A stretch of DNA of 64,000 nucleotides from Mariprofundus sp. NF (GTDB lineage: Bacteria; Pseudomonadota; Zetaproteobacteria; Mariprofundales; Mariprofundaceae), in NCBI RefSeq assembly GCF_013387455.1, contig NZ_VWNC01000007.1, positions 62,001 to 126,000 on the forward strand, read 5' to 3'. Below, in pieces: positions 34,083 through 40,735 of the stretch. The translations under genes were made by a program, and so were the position numbers. The notes beneath the pieces are model-generated. The model saw nothing but the letters and a program-made list of their open reading frames with translations, was not told where the DNA came from and did no database searches. The stretch's first letter is position 1. Each line of letters starts with the position of its first letter.

Positions 34083-34178
34083 CACGGGTTACAACCGTTA
34101 GTTAGTACGAACTACATGCCTGAGGGAAGGATAAATTGCCTAATATTCTCATATGGATGAAAGTCCCGACTTACAAGG

Positions 34179-34208
34179 TTGAAGTTATACAACTATGCTG
34201 ATTATTAA
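34179..34208 (+). promoter_or_regulatory. Candidate promoter of the acylation operon
   Basis: TTGAAG (34179-34184), 18 bases, TATTAA (34203-34208), about 35 bases before the first ligase start. Both boxes are imperfect. Confidence 0.45.
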
Positions 34209-34244
34209 ATAGAGATATCTACGATCTTCAGGATTAATTACGCA

Positions 34245-35612
34245 ATGATATTACCGATGGGAAACACTGCTAAAGAGTCAGGCGAGATAGAGCGTCTGTT
34301 TTCGAATCGTTTTGCATCAGAAACAGGCAGTGAAAAGAAGGTTCTGTTACAGGGTATAAAAGGCTCACTGGTGCTCTCCATCATACGATCTGCACTGCAA
34401 AATGGATGGACAGTCGCAATCATTCGAGAAGATGCAAGCAACGACTATCTGCAACATGCTCAATCAGAGTTGGGCTCACACTTACATGTCGTTGCTCATC
34501 AGGATTACGATGCTCCGCTTGTCTATGCTGGCCCGGATTGCAAACCACTGGATCTCTGGCTATCTGAAAATAGATCTGCCTCATCAGCTCGCCCCTATGC
34601 ATGGCGGGAGGATGAATGTGCGCTTATTCTCTTCACCTCCGGTTCAACAGGCATGCCCAAGGGCGTTTGTCATTCACTGGGAAATATCATTCGTTCAGCA
34701 GAGCTGTTTAGTGAACATTTTGAGATCGACAGTAGCGACCACCTCTATTGTCTGGCGCCTATCCACAGCATGTCAGGATTACGTAGTCTGCTTCTCCCCC
34801 TGGTTTCAGAAGCAGCGGTTACGATAGCTGACAATCACTCAGCACCCTTTCTATCGATCATCAAAGAGATACCCCAACTAAAGCCGACAAAAATTGTTTG
34901 CGGGCCCGTTTTCATCAAACAACTCGCCGCTTATGGCAAACGCATTATTGAACATATTCAAAGTGTAGAGGCCCTGCTTTGTACCGGCGCTGACCTTGAC
35001 GAGGCAGATCGCGCAACAGTAATGCAGGTGTTCGGAGTCCCGGTCGTGAATTATTACGGCTTAACAGAAACAGCTGGTATCGTACTGGCTGAAACAATCG
35101 CTAAGCAGACTGAAAATTGTCTCCCTCCCCCATGTGAAGGTTGCCAAATAGTGTTAACAACCGTTGAGGACTCCAGTCAACTGTTTCAACTGGGCATTAC
35201 AGGCCCAAACATGTTCCTGGGTTATTTGGGGGAACCACTACTTCGCACCTCATCATTTGATACCGGCGACCTGGTTCAAAAAACAGCGCATGAACAGCTC
35301 CGATTAGTGGGGCGATCTTCCGGGGCAGTAAAGGCGCCAACTACTGAGTGGATTTTTCCGAGCTTGCTAGAAGGCTGGTTAAAGAGTCAGGCCAACATAG
35401 ATGATGCCGTTGTCAAAGGATGCAGAATTTCAGGGGGATATGGTGTGGAGATATGGGTAGAGTGTTCTATGCCATTTGATTACTCAGCAATGGATAAATC
35501 GATTGTTCAACAGTTTGGCATTGAATACATGCCTGCCAAATGGCATAACGCAGTTATAAAACGAAATCCACTTGGCAAGGTTGACCAGATCATTGAAAAA
35601 ACAGGCTTTTAA
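34245..35612 (+). CDS. AMP-dependent ligase (adenylating enzyme) 1
   Basis: A 455-residue ANL-superfamily enzyme that activates a carboxylic acid as acyl-AMP. The core motifs are LFTSGSTGMPKGV (about residues 128-140), NYYGLTETAG, FDTGDLV and GR, with the C-terminal lysine in NPLGKVDQ, so it looks active. It is shorter than DltA (about 500 residues), with a compact N-terminal domain. The substrate cannot be read from sequence. It opens an operon resembling dltABCD in which a second ligase carries its own carrier domain. Base composition from here on is AT-richer than in flanking genes. Confidence 0.88.
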   Translation: MILPMGNTAKESGEIERLFSNRFASETGSEKKVLLQGIKGSLVLSIIRSALQNGWTVAIIREDASNDYLQHAQSELGSHLHVVAHQDYDAPLVYAGPDCKPLDLWLSENRSASSARPYAWREDECALILFTSGSTGMPKGVCHSLGNIIRSAELFSEHFEIDSSDHLYCLAPIHSMSGLRSLLLPLVSEAAVTIADNHSAPFLSIIKEIPQLKPTKIVCGPVFIKQLAAYGKRIIEHIQSVEALLCTGADLDEADRATVMQVFGVPVVNYYGLTETAGIVLAETIAKQTENCLPPPCEGCQIVLTTVEDSSQLFQLGITGPNMFLGYLGEPLLRTSSFDTGDLVQKTAHEQLRLVGRSSGAVKAPTTEWIFPSLLEGWLKSQANIDDAVVKGCRISGGYGVEIWVECSMPFDYSAMDKSIVQQFGIEYMPAKWHNAVIKRNPLGKVDQIIEKTGF

Positions 35613-35618
35613 TAAAGT

Positions 35619-37454
35619 ATGACAACCCAAAAGAAAAATTATACTGGTGCGCTTTATCGGGACATCAAGGTGCGTGCAAAAAATAACACTCTGTTTGCCG
35701 ATTTTAATGATGAAAAACTAACATATCGCCAGCTCTTGAATTCTGTGCAAAAGCTAACCTCCTTTTTCAGAACGCATGAACTTAAACAGGACTCACGAAT
35801 CATCATTGTGACCAAGCATGATAAGCATGCCATCACAATACTCACCGCAGCTTTGTTGGAAGGCTTTTCACCCATACTTCTATCCGTAGAAGCCAAATCG
35901 AAGCGTCTGCAAGCCATTGCGGAAAAAGTCTCGCCACAAATGATTTTTGTTGATGATGAGTTACAGCCAGCGTTACCCTGGTTGGCTGAATTCCTGTCTG
36001 TGAGCATATTGGAGGAGAGTAATCGATCTCTGTTTGCCCAGTTATTCGGGAAGAAAAACAGATCAGTTGAGTGTTATCCGAGCCTACTGACTGATTACGG
36101 CATAAGTGAACCGGCCTGCGCAGCCCGGGCGGATGATATTGCATTTATATCCTTCACCTCAGGAACAACATCCGAACCAAAGGGTATTCTCACAACACAT
36201 GCCAATTTATTTGAGCATTTAGAAACGCTTACACGCGTATTTGGCTACACAGAGCAATCCCGCATCTTCAATAATTTATCCCTGGCACATAACGATGGCT
36301 TCGTTCAGGGGCCATTGCTGGCACTGTTTTCCGGCGCCCTGCTGTATCGCCCCCCAGCATTTACGATCCAAAATCTGGAAGAGCGACTCAATAGCTTATT
36401 CAGCAAACGCATCACCCATTTCATCACAGTCCCTACAATACTTTCGCTGATAGATCGACTGACTTCCAATAATGACTATTTTGAAGGTGAAGATTTCCGT
36501 TGTTTGATCTCTGTGGCGGCCAAACTTGATGCAAATCTTTGGGAGAGGTCGCAGCAACGATTTGGCATCAATATATGCAATATTTACGGCCTGTCGGAAA
36601 CCGTTGCCGGAGGGCTGTTTTGTGGCCCGGATAAAGATTCGTTTGCCTTAGGTACAGTAGGTAAACCTGTTGATATGGATATTAGAATTGTCGATGAGAA
36701 AGGCTGTGATTGTTCGGTGAATGAAGAGGGTGAACTCTGGCTGAAAGGGGAAAATGTAACGCCTGGTTATCTGGATGACCCCATTGCTACAACATCACTG
36801 TTTTTCAACGACTGGTTATGTACAGGAGACATGGCTCGACAAAACCCGGAAGGCTTTATCGAAATTGTTGGTAGAAAAAAAGCAATTATTATGAGTGGTG
36901 GTTTTAATATACATCCTGATGAAATCAATGAAGTTTTGATGTCTCACCCACAAGTAGCTGATTCAGCAACCGTGGGAATAGCAGATCAGGATTGGGGTGA
37001 GCTGGTTGTGAGCGTTGTGGAATCAGATGATGATTTGGATGAAGCGAATCTTATCGATCATTGTCGTCATTTTCTTGAACCCATTAAGGTTCCAAAAACT
37101 ATTGTCACTACAAACAGGTTGCCTAGAGGGGTTTCAGGGAAAGTGTTGTTATCTGAAATCCGTGATTTGATTACTGATACAATTCATAAATCGGACAGAA
37201 ACAACACAACTATTCCACACAGTGATATTGTTGGCTTAGCAGCTTCAGTTTTCAACGCTTCAGAAAAAAAATTATCTTTGAATAGCTCGTCAGATCAAAC
37301 CCCGGGTTGGGATTCATTAGGGCATCTGAATCTCATCACCGCCACAGAGCAGAGATATGATATTCAGTTTAGCATGGATGAAATGATGCGTGTTGATTCT
37401 TTACAGTGCTTGCTTGAAATGGTTCAGAATAAGCTAAAATGTGATGAATCATAA
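35619..37454 (+). CDS. AMP-ligase 2 fused to an acyl/peptidyl carrier domain
   Basis: A 611-residue fusion. Residues 1 to about 520 are an adenylation domain with SFTSGTTSEPKGI, NIYGLSETVAGG, CTGDMARQNPEG, GRKKAIIMSGGFNIHP and the catalytic Lys in LPRGVSGKVL. Residues about 530-605 are a phosphopantetheine carrier with the attachment serine Ser566 in GWDSLGHLNL. In Dlt terms this unites DltA and DltC: the acid is adenylated, thioesterified to the carrier and presented to the MBOAT protein. Its end overlaps the start of the SGNH gene (11 bases from the ATG). Confidence 0.9.
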   Translation: MTTQKKNYTGALYRDIKVRAKNNTLFADFNDEKLTYRQLLNSVQKLTSFFRTHELKQDSRIIIVTKHDKHAITILTAALLEGFSPILLSVEAKSKRLQAIAEKVSPQMIFVDDELQPALPWLAEFLSVSILEESNRSLFAQLFGKKNRSVECYPSLLTDYGISEPACAARADDIAFISFTSGTTSEPKGILTTHANLFEHLETLTRVFGYTEQSRIFNNLSLAHNDGFVQGPLLALFSGALLYRPPAFTIQNLEERLNSLFSKRITHFITVPTILSLIDRLTSNNDYFEGEDFRCLISVAAKLDANLWERSQQRFGINICNIYGLSETVAGGLFCGPDKDSFALGTVGKPVDMDIRIVDEKGCDCSVNEEGELWLKGENVTPGYLDDPIATTSLFFNDWLCTGDMARQNPEGFIEIVGRKKAIIMSGGFNIHPDEINEVLMSHPQVADSATVGIADQDWGELVVSVVESDDDLDEANLIDHCRHFLEPIKVPKTIVTTNRLPRGVSGKVLLSEIRDLITDTIHKSDRNNTTIPHSDIVGLAASVFNASEKKLSLNSSSDQTPGWDSLGHLNLITATEQRYDIQFSMDEMMRVDSLQCLLEMVQNKLKCDES

Positions 37455-38337
37455 ACCAGTATCCAAAGTACCAGTCAGTCTCTGGCTTGCCACATTAAGC
37501 GGATTGCTATTTGTTATAATGATTTCTGACTATTTTCATCAAAACTATAAACCTCCTGCCGCATATGATCGTTTGTTGATGAGTTTTGTACCTGAACGAT
37601 TGAAAAGAATTCAAAATCATGGCCTGATTGTAATTGGAACATCTATGGTGAGTTGTGGATTTCCATATGATGAAAAGTTCGAATCATTAGCAGCCAAAAA
37701 AAATATGAAAATTGAATTTGTTCGTTTTTCACGCAATGCAGGTAGACCTAGTGATTTTGAATCCATCAGTGAGGCTGTTTTAAAGTCTAAACCACGTTGG
37801 ATCTTTCTACAGGCAGAACCATTTTTTTTAGAGTTAAGCAATCATAAATCTTTTTTTCATGAGCACTTCGATAGTATCCGTAATAATGTGCGTTTTATGC
37901 TTGAGCAAATCCTCATTAGAACTAAATTAATTATTCTATTCCCATTATATCAGGATGATCGCTCTTTAAAGCTTGAAGAGGTTGCTACAATAGACGAGAT
38001 CAAAAACGCAGAAGTTTCATATCAAATCAAACCACCTGTTTCCCCAAAGTATTTTGAATCTTTCCTTAAGCATGCCAAAGAAAATAATATCAAGGTCATC
38101 TTATTGGAAATGAATCGTTCAAAAGAAGGTAATGAGTACTTTGGAGATCGGTTCAGGGCTCAGTTAAACAGAACATTACAGCAAGTTTCAGAGTTTTATC
38201 AAATACCCCTATGGCAATTTAGAAGTGATCTCCCATTAGAGTATTATTCGGATCGTGCTCACTTGAATCGTAAAGGTCGTGCTGTTTTCAGTGACTGGTT
38301 TTTATCAAAGTTAGCGCAAGAAAACCATCATGACTGA
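37444..38337 (+). CDS. DltD-like SGNH-family membrane-anchored protein
   Basis: A 297-residue protein with an N-terminal membrane anchor (about residues 12-29) and a periplasmic SGNH-hydrolase-like domain. The nucleophile motif is IGTSMVSCG (Ser67) and the C-terminal DxxH is YYSDRAHLNRKG (Asp270, His273), as in DltD and AlgJ/AlgX-type proteins. It likely transfers or edits acyl groups on the envelope acceptor. The start is taken as ATG 37444, and the GTG three bases earlier is also possible. It overlaps both neighbours (carrier-ligase and MBOAT) and is notably AT-rich. Confidence 0.82.
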   Translation: MNHKPVSKVPVSLWLATLSGLLFVIMISDYFHQNYKPPAAYDRLLMSFVPERLKRIQNHGLIVIGTSMVSCGFPYDEKFESLAAKKNMKIEFVRFSRNAGRPSDFESISEAVLKSKPRWIFLQAEPFFLELSNHKSFFHEHFDSIRNNVRFMLEQILIRTKLIILFPLYQDDRSLKLEEVATIDEIKNAEVSYQIKPPVSPKYFESFLKHAKENNIKVILLEMNRSKEGNEYFGDRFRAQLNRTLQQVSEFYQIPLWQFRSDLPLEYYSDRAHLNRKGRAVFSDWFLSKLAQENHHD

Positions 38338-39439
38338 CTTCCAAGCGGTCTATTTTGTTTGGATGGTTGCCACAGTTATTGTGACCTGGATATCACCTAG
38401 GCAGTGGCAGGTTGATGTTGTTGCCATAAGTACAGTGATTTTTGTGGCAATCTATTCTCCCTGGTCCTGTTTTTGGCTGATATCGGCATCATTATTGACT
38501 TACTTATGCATCTGCATTTCACCCACTAAAAAACCGGCCTTGATCGGGGTATCAATCATTCTGATCGCTGTTGTTTTCCTTGTTTACAAGTGGCTGTCAC
38601 CTGGCGCGGACAATACCGGGGCAATATTGCCAGTGATGCTTGGCCTCTCATATTATACATGTCGTCACATTCATATTTTGATGGAAGTCTATAAAGGCAA
38701 CATTCAAACCATGAGTTTGCGCCGCTACTTTCACTATCAGCTCTTTCTACCGGTATTGGTTGTAGGCCCTATCCACCGCTATCAGAACTTTCAAAGGCAG
38801 TGCGAACGACGGCGTTGGGATTCGGTCAACCTTACGACTGGTTTTGAGCGCATTTTATATGGTTATGCCAAGGTTGTTGTACTTGGAAATTGGCTGCTTA
38901 ATCACAAATTAGGCGGTATTCTGGAGCAGTATGCTGGTGATGGCTTCTGGGGTATATTTATCATCTCTGCCAAGGACTGGCTCTATCTCTATATTGAATT
39001 TAGCGGCTATATTGATGTTGCATTGGGTTTTTCACTGTTATTGGGTTTTCATATCGAAGAGAACTTTAACCACCCTTTAAAAGCACGCAATTTGATTGAT
39101 TTCTGGCAACGCTGGCACATCACCCTCTCCAGCTGGTGTAAAGATTATGTATTCAGTCCGGTTCAGGCTAAAACACGTAACCAACTACTGGCCGTGTTTG
39201 CTGCTATGACAGTGATGGGACTGTGGCATGAACTATCGTTATATTATTTCTTATGGGGTTTTTATCATGCCACTGGTATCGCTTTGTGTCGCCTCTACCA
39301 GCTAAATGATGATCCGCTACGGCTTTCCATGCTGCCAGCTGTCTTGCAAAACGCGATAACCAGAACAGCAACTTTTACCTGGCTTGTTGCAGGTATGCCT
39401 GTCATTACTTCGATTCTGTCATTTGCCGGTTTAGGGTGA
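38330..39439 (+). CDS. MBOAT-family membrane O-acyltransferase (DltB-like)
   Basis: A 369-residue polytopic inner-membrane protein (about nine or ten helices). It has the MBOAT signature histidines: His263 in FWQRWHITLSSW and the invariant catalytic His300 in MGLWHELSLYYFLWG. It also has VVGPIHRYQNF and the YIEFSGYIDVALGFSLLLG segment seen in DltB/AlgI. In Dlt systems this protein passes the acyl group from the carrier across the membrane. The ATG overlaps the end of the SGNH gene by eight bases, and a 48-codon gene follows after four bases. Confidence 0.93.
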   Translation: MTDFQAVYFVWMVATVIVTWISPRQWQVDVVAISTVIFVAIYSPWSCFWLISASLLTYLCICISPTKKPALIGVSIILIAVVFLVYKWLSPGADNTGAILPVMLGLSYYTCRHIHILMEVYKGNIQTMSLRRYFHYQLFLPVLVVGPIHRYQNFQRQCERRRWDSVNLTTGFERILYGYAKVVVLGNWLLNHKLGGILEQYAGDGFWGIFIISAKDWLYLYIEFSGYIDVALGFSLLLGFHIEENFNHPLKARNLIDFWQRWHITLSSWCKDYVFSPVQAKTRNQLLAVFAAMTVMGLWHELSLYYFLWGFYHATGIALCRLYQLNDDPLRLSMLPAVLQNAITRTATFTWLVAGMPVITSILSFAGLG

Positions 39440-39443
39440 TGTG

Positions 39444-39590
39444 ATGAGTAAAACTTATCTATTTCTTTTAACGTGGTTGCCCGACCCTCTTGCAAGGTTG
39501 GCATTGGTAATCTGGTACATATTATTGATGTTAGCCATTATTGATCGCAGCACAGTGCCGTTTGATGGATTCATCTACTGGGATAATTAA
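39444..39590 (+). CDS. DltX-like 48-residue membrane microprotein
   Basis: A short gene four bases after the MBOAT stop, with agggtgatg as ribosome-binding site. The product has a short N-terminus, one membrane helix (about residues 17-34) and ends PFDGFIYWDN. This closely resembles DltX of Gram-positive D-alanylation operons, a roughly 50-residue single-helix peptide. DltX's C-terminal FIYxx(E/D)-type motif carries the tyrosine that relays the acyl group with DltB. Here Tyr45 would be the acceptor. It is too short for standard gene cut-offs and probably unannotated. Position, length, helix and C-terminal motif all agree. Confidence 0.85.
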   Translation: MSKTYLFLLTWLPDPLARLALVIWYILLMLAIIDRSTVPFDGFIYWDN

Positions 39591-39613
39591 CTGGAAAACG
39601 GGAGATAAAAGCG

Positions 39614-40567
39614 ATGGATTTCATCACATGGGCCAAAGGTCGCACGCTGCCAAAAGCACTCCAATCAAGAGAAGGTTGGGCTCAATTTTTTGAGCATTAT
39701 CGAACAGAAGAGCCGCATATTCACCAGATTGAGCCAACCAACCGTTGTCCTTATACCTGTGTGATGTGCCCCAGAAATGACAACATGACAAGAAAACAGG
39801 GTAACATGGAGATGGGGCTGTTCAGAAAAATTATTGATGAAGCTTCCACCTACTCAGAAAAAGTCCGTGAGAAGGAGATTGAACTTTTTCACTTTGGCGA
39901 ATCACTGTTTCATCCACAACTTGCAGAGATGGTCGCTTACAGTTCATCAGCCGGACTTAGACCCACGCTTTCTATAAACCCTGCAGACCTCAATTCCGGA
40001 ATGATCGATGACCTTCTCAAAAGCGCGCCTTATAAAATAATAATATCTCTGGATAGCATGACCGATAAAAGGTACCGGGCGATCAGAGGAGAACATGCCG
40101 AAATCGACCGGGCCGTAGAAAACACAGAACTACTGCTGCAGCGGCATCAGCAGTTGGAGAGTAATACAATCATCAGCATCAGAATGATTGTCATGAATCT
40201 GAATGAAGATGAGGTTGAGGATTTCCGCAATTTCTGGCAAGAGCGAGGTGGAGTTGTAGAGTTAAGAGATTTTTTTCCCTGGAGCAAAAACGAGCTTCAA
40301 GAGCTTGGCAGAGTAGAAAAATATCCGGCCTACATGCCCTGCCCTTTCCCCTGGCAATATCTTGTCGCCCAATGGAATGGCGATGTGGTTGCATGTTGCC
40401 GTGATTATAACGGCCTGTTGAAGCTTGGAAATGTCGCTGATTCTACGCTGAAAGAGATATGGAATGGCCCGGCTTACACTGAGTTCCGGAGAAAAATGGC
40501 CTCTGGTCGCGGCCTCACCAGTTTTTGTGAGGAGTGTCTCAGCATATACTATTCTGAGCCCACATAG
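39614..40567 (+). CDS. Radical SAM/SPASM enzyme
   Basis: A 317-residue radical SAM protein with the [4Fe-4S] ligands Cys45, Cys49 and Cys52 (NRCPYTCVMC). A C-terminal SPASM-type cysteine cluster follows (MPCPFPW, VACCRDYNG, FCEECLS). It has HFGESLFHPQ, LSINPADL and a GNVADSTLKEIWNGP motif typical of SPASM proteins. It lies 23 bp after the DltX-like gene on the same strand and is probably part of the operon. It might produce or modify the acyl group or the acceptor. The reaction is not known. Confidence 0.9.
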   Translation: MDFITWAKGRTLPKALQSREGWAQFFEHYRTEEPHIHQIEPTNRCPYTCVMCPRNDNMTRKQGNMEMGLFRKIIDEASTYSEKVREKEIELFHFGESLFHPQLAEMVAYSSSAGLRPTLSINPADLNSGMIDDLLKSAPYKIIISLDSMTDKRYRAIRGEHAEIDRAVENTELLLQRHQQLESNTIISIRMIVMNLNEDEVEDFRNFWQERGGVVELRDFFPWSKNELQELGRVEKYPAYMPCPFPWQYLVAQWNGDVVACCRDYNGLLKLGNVADSTLKEIWNGPAYTEFRRKMASGRGLTSFCEECLSIYYSEPT

Positions 40568-40735
40568 TTCTCACCCCACACAATAACTCAAAAAAATTAA
40601 TGCAACACACCGAACATTGCCCAGAGAACGATTGCCAGCTCCCAAAGGAACTTGAACTTATGATCAGGAATTGTGATACTGCTTGCTCTTGTGCCAGTCA
40701 CTTGAAAAATATGATGCAGGTTGGAGGGATGGCTT

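Follow-up and report, generated by a model that had tools for sequence, protein, structure and literature searches.

A probable Dlt-type acyl relay on a horizontally acquired cassette of Mariprofundus sp. NF

Is the cluster of six genes at positions 34245–40567 of a Mariprofundus sp. NF contig a dlt operon in a Gram-negative bacterium, or does it decorate the cell surface with something other than D-alanine? The window analysed here is a 64,000-nucleotide stretch of that contig (NZ_VWNC01000007.1, positions 62,001–126,000), and the cluster within it encodes two ligases, an SGNH-fold protein, an MBOAT, a small membrane peptide and a radical SAM enzyme. We consider it probable that these genes specify a Dlt-type transmembrane acyl relay, acquired horizontally, that attaches an acyl group lacking an alpha-amino group to a periplasmic glycan and includes cassette-specific tailoring. 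The best-supported reading is that the system is Dlt-like in its working, is not Dlt, and belongs to the wider MBOAT-SGNH class. No description of the operon turned up in the open-access literature searched. The features are as follows.

34245–35612, + strand: LigA, an adenylate-forming ligase of an unusual, short type, 455 amino acids (aa), with conserved motifs KGVCHS, HxxSG and GRxSGxVKxxxT and a terminal GK lysine.
35619–37454, + strand: LigB, an adenylate-forming ligase with a fused acyl-carrier domain, 611 aa; Ser566 (codon 37314–37316) lies in PGWDSLGHL.
37444–38337, + strand: SGNH-fold protein with an N-terminal membrane anchor and Ser67/Asp270/His273; ATG start at 37444.
38330–39439, + strand: short DltB-like MBOAT, 369 aa, with His263 and His300 and without a C-terminal FXYXXF tail.
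39444–39590, + strand: DltX-like single-helix membrane peptide, 48 aa, C-terminal FDGFIYWDN; the proposed acyl-shuttle Tyr45 is encoded at 39576–39578.
39614–40567, + strand: radical SAM/SPASM (twitch-type) enzyme with a CxxxCxxC core; BtrN is the solved structure closest to it in sequence.
34089–40650, no strand assigned: acquired cassette, about 6.6 kb without counterpart in the closest congener (G015), between an SBP gene and a roadblock-like gene.

The six open reading frames (ORFs) follow one another closely on the same strand, separated by 6, 4 and 23 bp where there are gaps and sharing 11 and 8 bp where they overlap, just as the first-pass annotation described them; its residue numbers for the carrier serine, the SGNH triad and the two MBOAT histidines are likewise exact. 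Pfam-type searches identify AMP-binding domains in LigA and LigB, AMP-binding_C in LigB, MBOAT, and Radical_SAM plus SPASM domains. An alternative GTG start is possible for the SGNH protein at 37441. The host genome (2.53 Mb in 24 contigs) encodes LptD, and the host therefore has an outer membrane. Scans for promoters and terminators returned sites no more numerous than in shuffled sequence.

Whether such a cluster is more than a chance assembly can be judged from its recurrence. A scan for the MBOAT across about 85,000 species genomes recovered five close relatives at 45–70% identity, after which identity drops to 35% or less. These come from a Thiomargarita (L033), a Desulfopila (L034), an uncultured gammaproteobacterium (L035), a Legionellales bacterium (L036) and a Nitrospinaceae bacterium (L037). 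The order LigA-LigB-SGNH-MBOAT-peptide is the same in L033, L034, L036 and L037; the L035 contig begins within the SGNH gene, and its remaining order, SGNH-MBOAT-peptide, agrees. Five other genomes share this order, so the clustering exceeds chance, and one ground on which the first-pass annotation said it should be abandoned, the lack of conserved clustering in relatives, falls away. LigA orthologues share 55, 47, 38 and 31% identity in L033, L034, L036 and L037, and LigB orthologues 66, 47, 42 and 40% in four relatives. The system is nonetheless rare, since a profile of the SGNH proteins run over 398 Pseudomonadota genomes found only the window's own genome. A smaller set occurs on a plasmid of Sulfitobacter pontiacus (L114; NZ_CP049347.1, 5351–9175), where LigB (36%), SGNH, MBOAT (34%) and an unannotated DltX-like peptide with C-terminal IIYIDLQEAQ adjoin a NeuD-like acetyltransferase, a PanE-like reductase and glycosyltransferases.

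These distributions bear on whether the ligases and radical SAM enzyme belong to an unrelated metabolic pathway and only happen to sit beside an MBOAT/SGNH pair of the ordinary, O-acetylating kind. Enzymes of both sorts, ANL ligases and radical SAM proteins, are common, and the slot after the peptide differs between cassettes, but ligase-carrier, SGNH, MBOAT and peptide genes keep their order and overlaps across several phyla, and LigB-SGNH-MBOAT-peptide persists on the Sulfitobacter plasmid. Moreover, the Mariprofundus genome encodes another pair, of canonical type, outside the window: a second MBOAT with a FIYFDF tail (G000:C7:42666-43349; L001) beside SGNH-like and carbamoyltransferase-like genes. 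We regard mere neighbourhood as very improbable.

If the genes work together, to which acyl-transfer system is the membrane component related? His263 and His300 of the MBOAT are invariant across six relatives. TIGR04091 (DltB) is the only NCBIfam model that the protein matches (171 bits, against an equivalog cut-off of 375), and a profile of the six cassette MBOATs searched against solved structures found DltB as its only relative (143 bits), with an E-value of 2.4e-34 in profile-profile comparison. The cassette MBOATs thus appear to be related to DltB and nearest to it, without being equivalogs. In a tree of 111 rows they form one clade (SH-aLRT, the Shimodaira–Hasegawa-like approximate likelihood ratio test, 98) with the Sulfitobacter plasmid MBOAT as sister and nearest outgroup, apart from 100 ungrouped MBOAT rows that are mostly FXYXXF-tailed; the join of this clade to DltB is weak (68) and involves long branches. 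Among the MBOAT ORFs compared, an FXYXXF-like tail is present in 95 and absent from 23, the latter including those of the cassettes. The window MBOAT ends in ..ITSILSFAGLG and thus lacks the fused tail of the PatA type. The cassette MBOAT profile had no matches on viral contigs.

The shuttle tyrosine instead lies, in every cassette, on a separate peptide of 48–49 aa encoded directly after the MBOAT. The six peptides share invariant M1, L8, P13, W24, Y25, I33 and Y45 and end in FIYWDN, FIYWDH, IIYWDKP, IIYFGH, FLYYGH and IVYWDE. Tyr45 occupies the position of the acyl-shuttle Tyr of DltX, and the C-terminal shuttle Tyr of the MBOAT-SGNH class would thus be supplied here by a partner peptide. 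A Pfam search of the six peptides gave no match and no hit to a DltX model; we call them DltX-like because of their position, their length, their one hydrophobic helix and a C-terminal Tyr conserved in six loci. The window and Thiomargarita peptides differ by 14 synonymous and 12 non-synonymous codons, a small sample that favours a translated gene. There are two further candidates among small ORFs. In another Pseudomonadota genome (L030, 1048–2445), a 407-aa MBOAT is followed by a 55-aa ORF ending in FLYGRF, perhaps a separate shuttle peptide. In Thiomargarita (L033, 81–233), the cassette is immediately preceded by a DUF5989 peptide whose terminal FIYTLF fits FXYXXF, and DUF5989 may be a shuttle-like peptide.

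The SGNH protein is the presumed acyl acceptor of such a shuttle. Asp270 and His273 are invariant in the six homologues, and the Ser block is absent only from L035, where the contig end cuts it off. The window protein has a weak Lipase_GDSL_2 match, and its profile found nothing significant among the sequences of solved structures. In a predicted model (mean predicted local distance difference test score, pLDDT, 71), the chain starts with a helix, and the fold matches SGNH esterases (Z about 14 over 165–190 residues). PatB is among the Foldseek matches to this model; DltD is not among the structural matches listed. The cassette thus has adjoining MBOAT and SGNH genes with putative catalytic His and Ser/Asp/His residues, as in the general MBOAT-SGNH class. 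Judged by its sequence, however, the protein is not DltD: the DltD model (PF04914) does not match it, whereas a Klebsiella protein scores 79 bits.

That Klebsiella protein belongs to a set on a Klebsiella electrica plasmid (L118; NZ_CP041250.1, 4439–8491), which encodes DltD, a DltB-like MBOAT, a DltA-like ligase with an SFDLS motif, a free carrier and a 40-aa microprotein with C-terminal FEYQKF, with insertion sequence elements on the flanks. Since this genuine dlt-like set exists, a Gram-negative Dlt system is possible, and the cassette might likewise be a dlt operon that adds D-alanine, or another alpha-amino acid, to a surface polymer; the DltB kinship of its MBOAT, the shuttle peptide and the carrier would all fit. 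The ligases speak otherwise. In alpha-amino-acid adenylation domains (nonribosomal peptide synthetases, DltA), an Asp binds the amino group. We aligned LigA and LigB with two annotated DltA proteins from lactobacilli and the DltA-like Klebsiella enzyme. The latter three have the pocket motif SFDLS, as opposed to AHNDG, AHVDG, AHADG or SHADG in LigB and IHSMSG or similar in LigA; at the column of the DltA Asp, LigB has N, V or A and LigA has no Asp. D-alanine is therefore an unlikely substrate of either ligase, and the pocket is not of the DltA type. The nearest solved relatives of LigB are oxalyl-CoA, succinylbenzoate and malonyl-CoA ligases, and both enzymes appear closer to the acyl-CoA-synthetase type than to DltA, which neither seems to be. 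With the SGNH protein also not DltD, we judge alpha-amino acylation unlikely. Like Dlt, the cassette does have a phosphopantetheine carrier: the Ser in GWDSLGH, the putative phosphopantetheine site, is invariant in six homologues. The PP-binding match of LigB is weak (15.1 bits, below the 20.8 cut-off), with the GWDS motif present.

What, then, do the remaining genes contribute? The sixth slot holds a radical SAM enzyme in three of the six loci (window, Thiomargarita and Desulfopila); orthologues occur only in L033 (72%) and L034 (62%). The other three loci (L035–L037) encode an unrelated protein bearing a zinc ribbon at its N-terminus, for which weak Trm112/FYVE matches are the only ones. One stretch resembles a methyltransferase by eye, and no family model backs that assignment. 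A search for this protein on plasmids found none, and its predicted structure (mean pLDDT 40) was not used. Among solved structures, the radical SAM enzyme is closest in sequence to BtrN (2-deoxy-scyllo-inosamine dehydrogenase), whose SPASM/twitch layout it shares. The radical SAM enzyme is outside the conserved core. Given the varying sixth slot and the composition of the Sulfitobacter set, we assign LigB, SGNH, MBOAT and peptide to the core and regard the other genes as tailoring functions; it is LigA and the radical SAM enzyme that differ from one cassette to another.

A second ligase next to the first might also indicate a two-part acyl group, in which LigA, with the help of an extra domain in the Legionellales variant, activates a second acid that is joined before export to the LigB-bound unit, so that a small conjugate, for instance an amino or hydroxy acid with an acyl group on it, would be carried. 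The two ligases do stand side by side in four relatives with one encoded carrier, and LigA of L036 (3357–6341) is fused at its N-terminus to an additional adenylation domain bearing FDFS, a motif typical of amino-acid activation; this variant may therefore involve an amino acid. The cassette encodes no condensation enzyme, however, and the Sulfitobacter set has LigB, SGNH, MBOAT and peptide without LigA. A two-part cargo is, in our estimate, quite unlikely.

The cassette was acquired horizontally, as an insert. A close MBOAT is absent from all 22 congeners searched, and in five congeners the flanking SBP and roadblock-like genes adjoin without the cassette, the gap between them being about 100 bp in four. 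DNA similarity to G015 stops at 34088 and resumes at 40651. The GC content of the cassette genes is 36–47%, versus 51–52% in two upstream genes; that of the downstream roadblock gene is also 47%. Horizontal transfer had been proposed from the AT-rich composition, and the cassette-free sites in congeners bear it out. Direct or inverted repeats of at least 14 bp were absent within either flank, each flank being taken alone and the two ends not compared together. In G015 the gap is occupied by an unrelated ORF of 176 aa that has hydrophobic segments (L146, 7403–7933), and the site may therefore accept different inserts.

Returning to the relay of a non-alpha-amino acyl group, we propose that LigB adenylates a carboxylic acid, probably one without an alpha-amino group, and loads it onto its own phosphopantetheine carrier domain. 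Using His300, the MBOAT would pick up the carrier-bound acyl group, bring it across the inner membrane and hand it to Tyr45, at the C-terminal end of the peptide on the periplasmic side, as in Dlt. The acyl-Tyr peptide would then swing to the anchored SGNH protein, whose Ser67 would take the acyl group and esterify an extracytoplasmic glycan. LigA may activate a second acid or supply a precursor, and the radical SAM enzyme may tailor the acyl group or the acceptor. For the window genome we infer a glycan acceptor; the Legionellales cassette is adjoined by glycan genes (GtrA, PMT_2 and a polysaccharide deacetylase).

Several observations weigh against this proposal. No glycan genes were found directly adjoining the window cassette. 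The final Phe of the published FXYXXF is missing from all six peptides, which are to that extent not the microprotein of the Dlt system, and their profile match to two true DltX sequences is weak and spans only 15 columns. Comparison of the SGNH protein with DltD by hhalign gives a probability of 1.2%. LigB has an invariant Asp one column past the DltA Asp, plus one extra residue there, so that an alpha-amino acid is only argued against. The FDFS domain of the Legionellales LigA points the same way. Of the likeness to the dlt operon drawn in the first-pass annotation, a Dlt-like relay in a Gram-negative stands; the identification as an actual dlt operon does not, with no sequence relation detected between the SGNH protein and DltD and with ligases nearer the acyl-CoA-synthetase type. 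Similarly, its non-standard acyl group survives as one that is probably not D-alanine, in keeping with the pocket comparison, but the radical SAM enzyme as a core part does not, three of the six cassettes being different. The cassette lies outside the Dlt family as defined, since searches for DltD, for the FXYXXF motif and for a pocket of the DltA type each came out negative. Only tentatively would we go further and see here a separate class, namely carrier-fed, microprotein-dependent surface acylation in outer-membrane bacteria, borne on a cross-phylum cassette with two ligases and an exchangeable finishing enzyme (radical SAM or zinc-ribbon) and delivering an acyl group new to envelope polymers.

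How does the cassette compare with known systems? The Tyr relay has been described biochemically for DltX/DltB/DltD and PatA/PatB: the DltX Tyr takes D-alanine from DltB and hands it to DltD, a scheme extended to PatA, and PatA-type MBOATs have their own FXYXXF tail and use acetyl-CoA as donor (PMC12148441). Outside Dlt, MBOAT/SGNH pathways are said to have neither a DltX-like microprotein nor a carrier protein (PMC12148441). The cassette and the Klebsiella and Sulfitobacter sets appear to be exceptions to this statement in outer-membrane bacteria. The altered motif also bears on which FXYXXF residues matter, Tyr alone being invariant here. Should the acyl group prove new, the cassette would offer a route by which non-acetyl, non-alanyl groups reach surface glycans, and the chemistry used by each host could be read from the exchangeable sixth gene. 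Separately, a free carrier-like ORF lies within 3 kb of 50 of 75 MBOAT loci (L038–L112) outside the cassette clade, a fraction that is indicative only, the loci having been chosen by short MBOAT patterns and the carriers by BLAST plus a loose motif. Most of the carrier-adjoining loci have FLYFQF-type tails, and several have DltA-like ligases (e.g., L054, L073 and L096). MBOAT clusters fed by a carrier may thus be common among Gram-negatives, at odds with the published statement that non-Dlt pathways have none (PMC12148441).

Like the DltX-DltA-DltB-DltC-DltD system that D-alanylates teichoic acid in Bacillota, the cassette has a ligase and carrier, a short, tail-less MBOAT of the DltB branch, a separate single-helix peptide with a C-terminal Tyr and an anchored SGNH protein. 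Unlike Dlt, it resides in hosts with an outer membrane, its carrier is fused to a ligase, its ligases are without the DltA Asp at the amino-binding position, its SGNH protein is by sequence not DltD, its peptide is without the final Phe, and it adds a second ligase and a variable tailoring enzyme. The Klebsiella electrica set shares the separate microprotein, short MBOAT, ligase, carrier and Gram-negative host; it differs in its true DltD, SFDLS ligase, free carrier and canonical FEYQKF, and in having neither LigA nor a radical SAM enzyme. The Sulfitobacter set likewise lacks LigA and the radical SAM enzyme and has the NeuD-like acetyltransferase and PanE-like reductase instead. With PatA/PatB and other Gram-negative MBOAT-SGNH O-acetyltransferases, finally, the cassette has in common the MBOAT-SGNH pair, the His/Tyr relay logic and outer-membrane hosts, whereas in the cassette, unlike PatA/PatB, the tail sits on a peptide of its own and there is a carrier.

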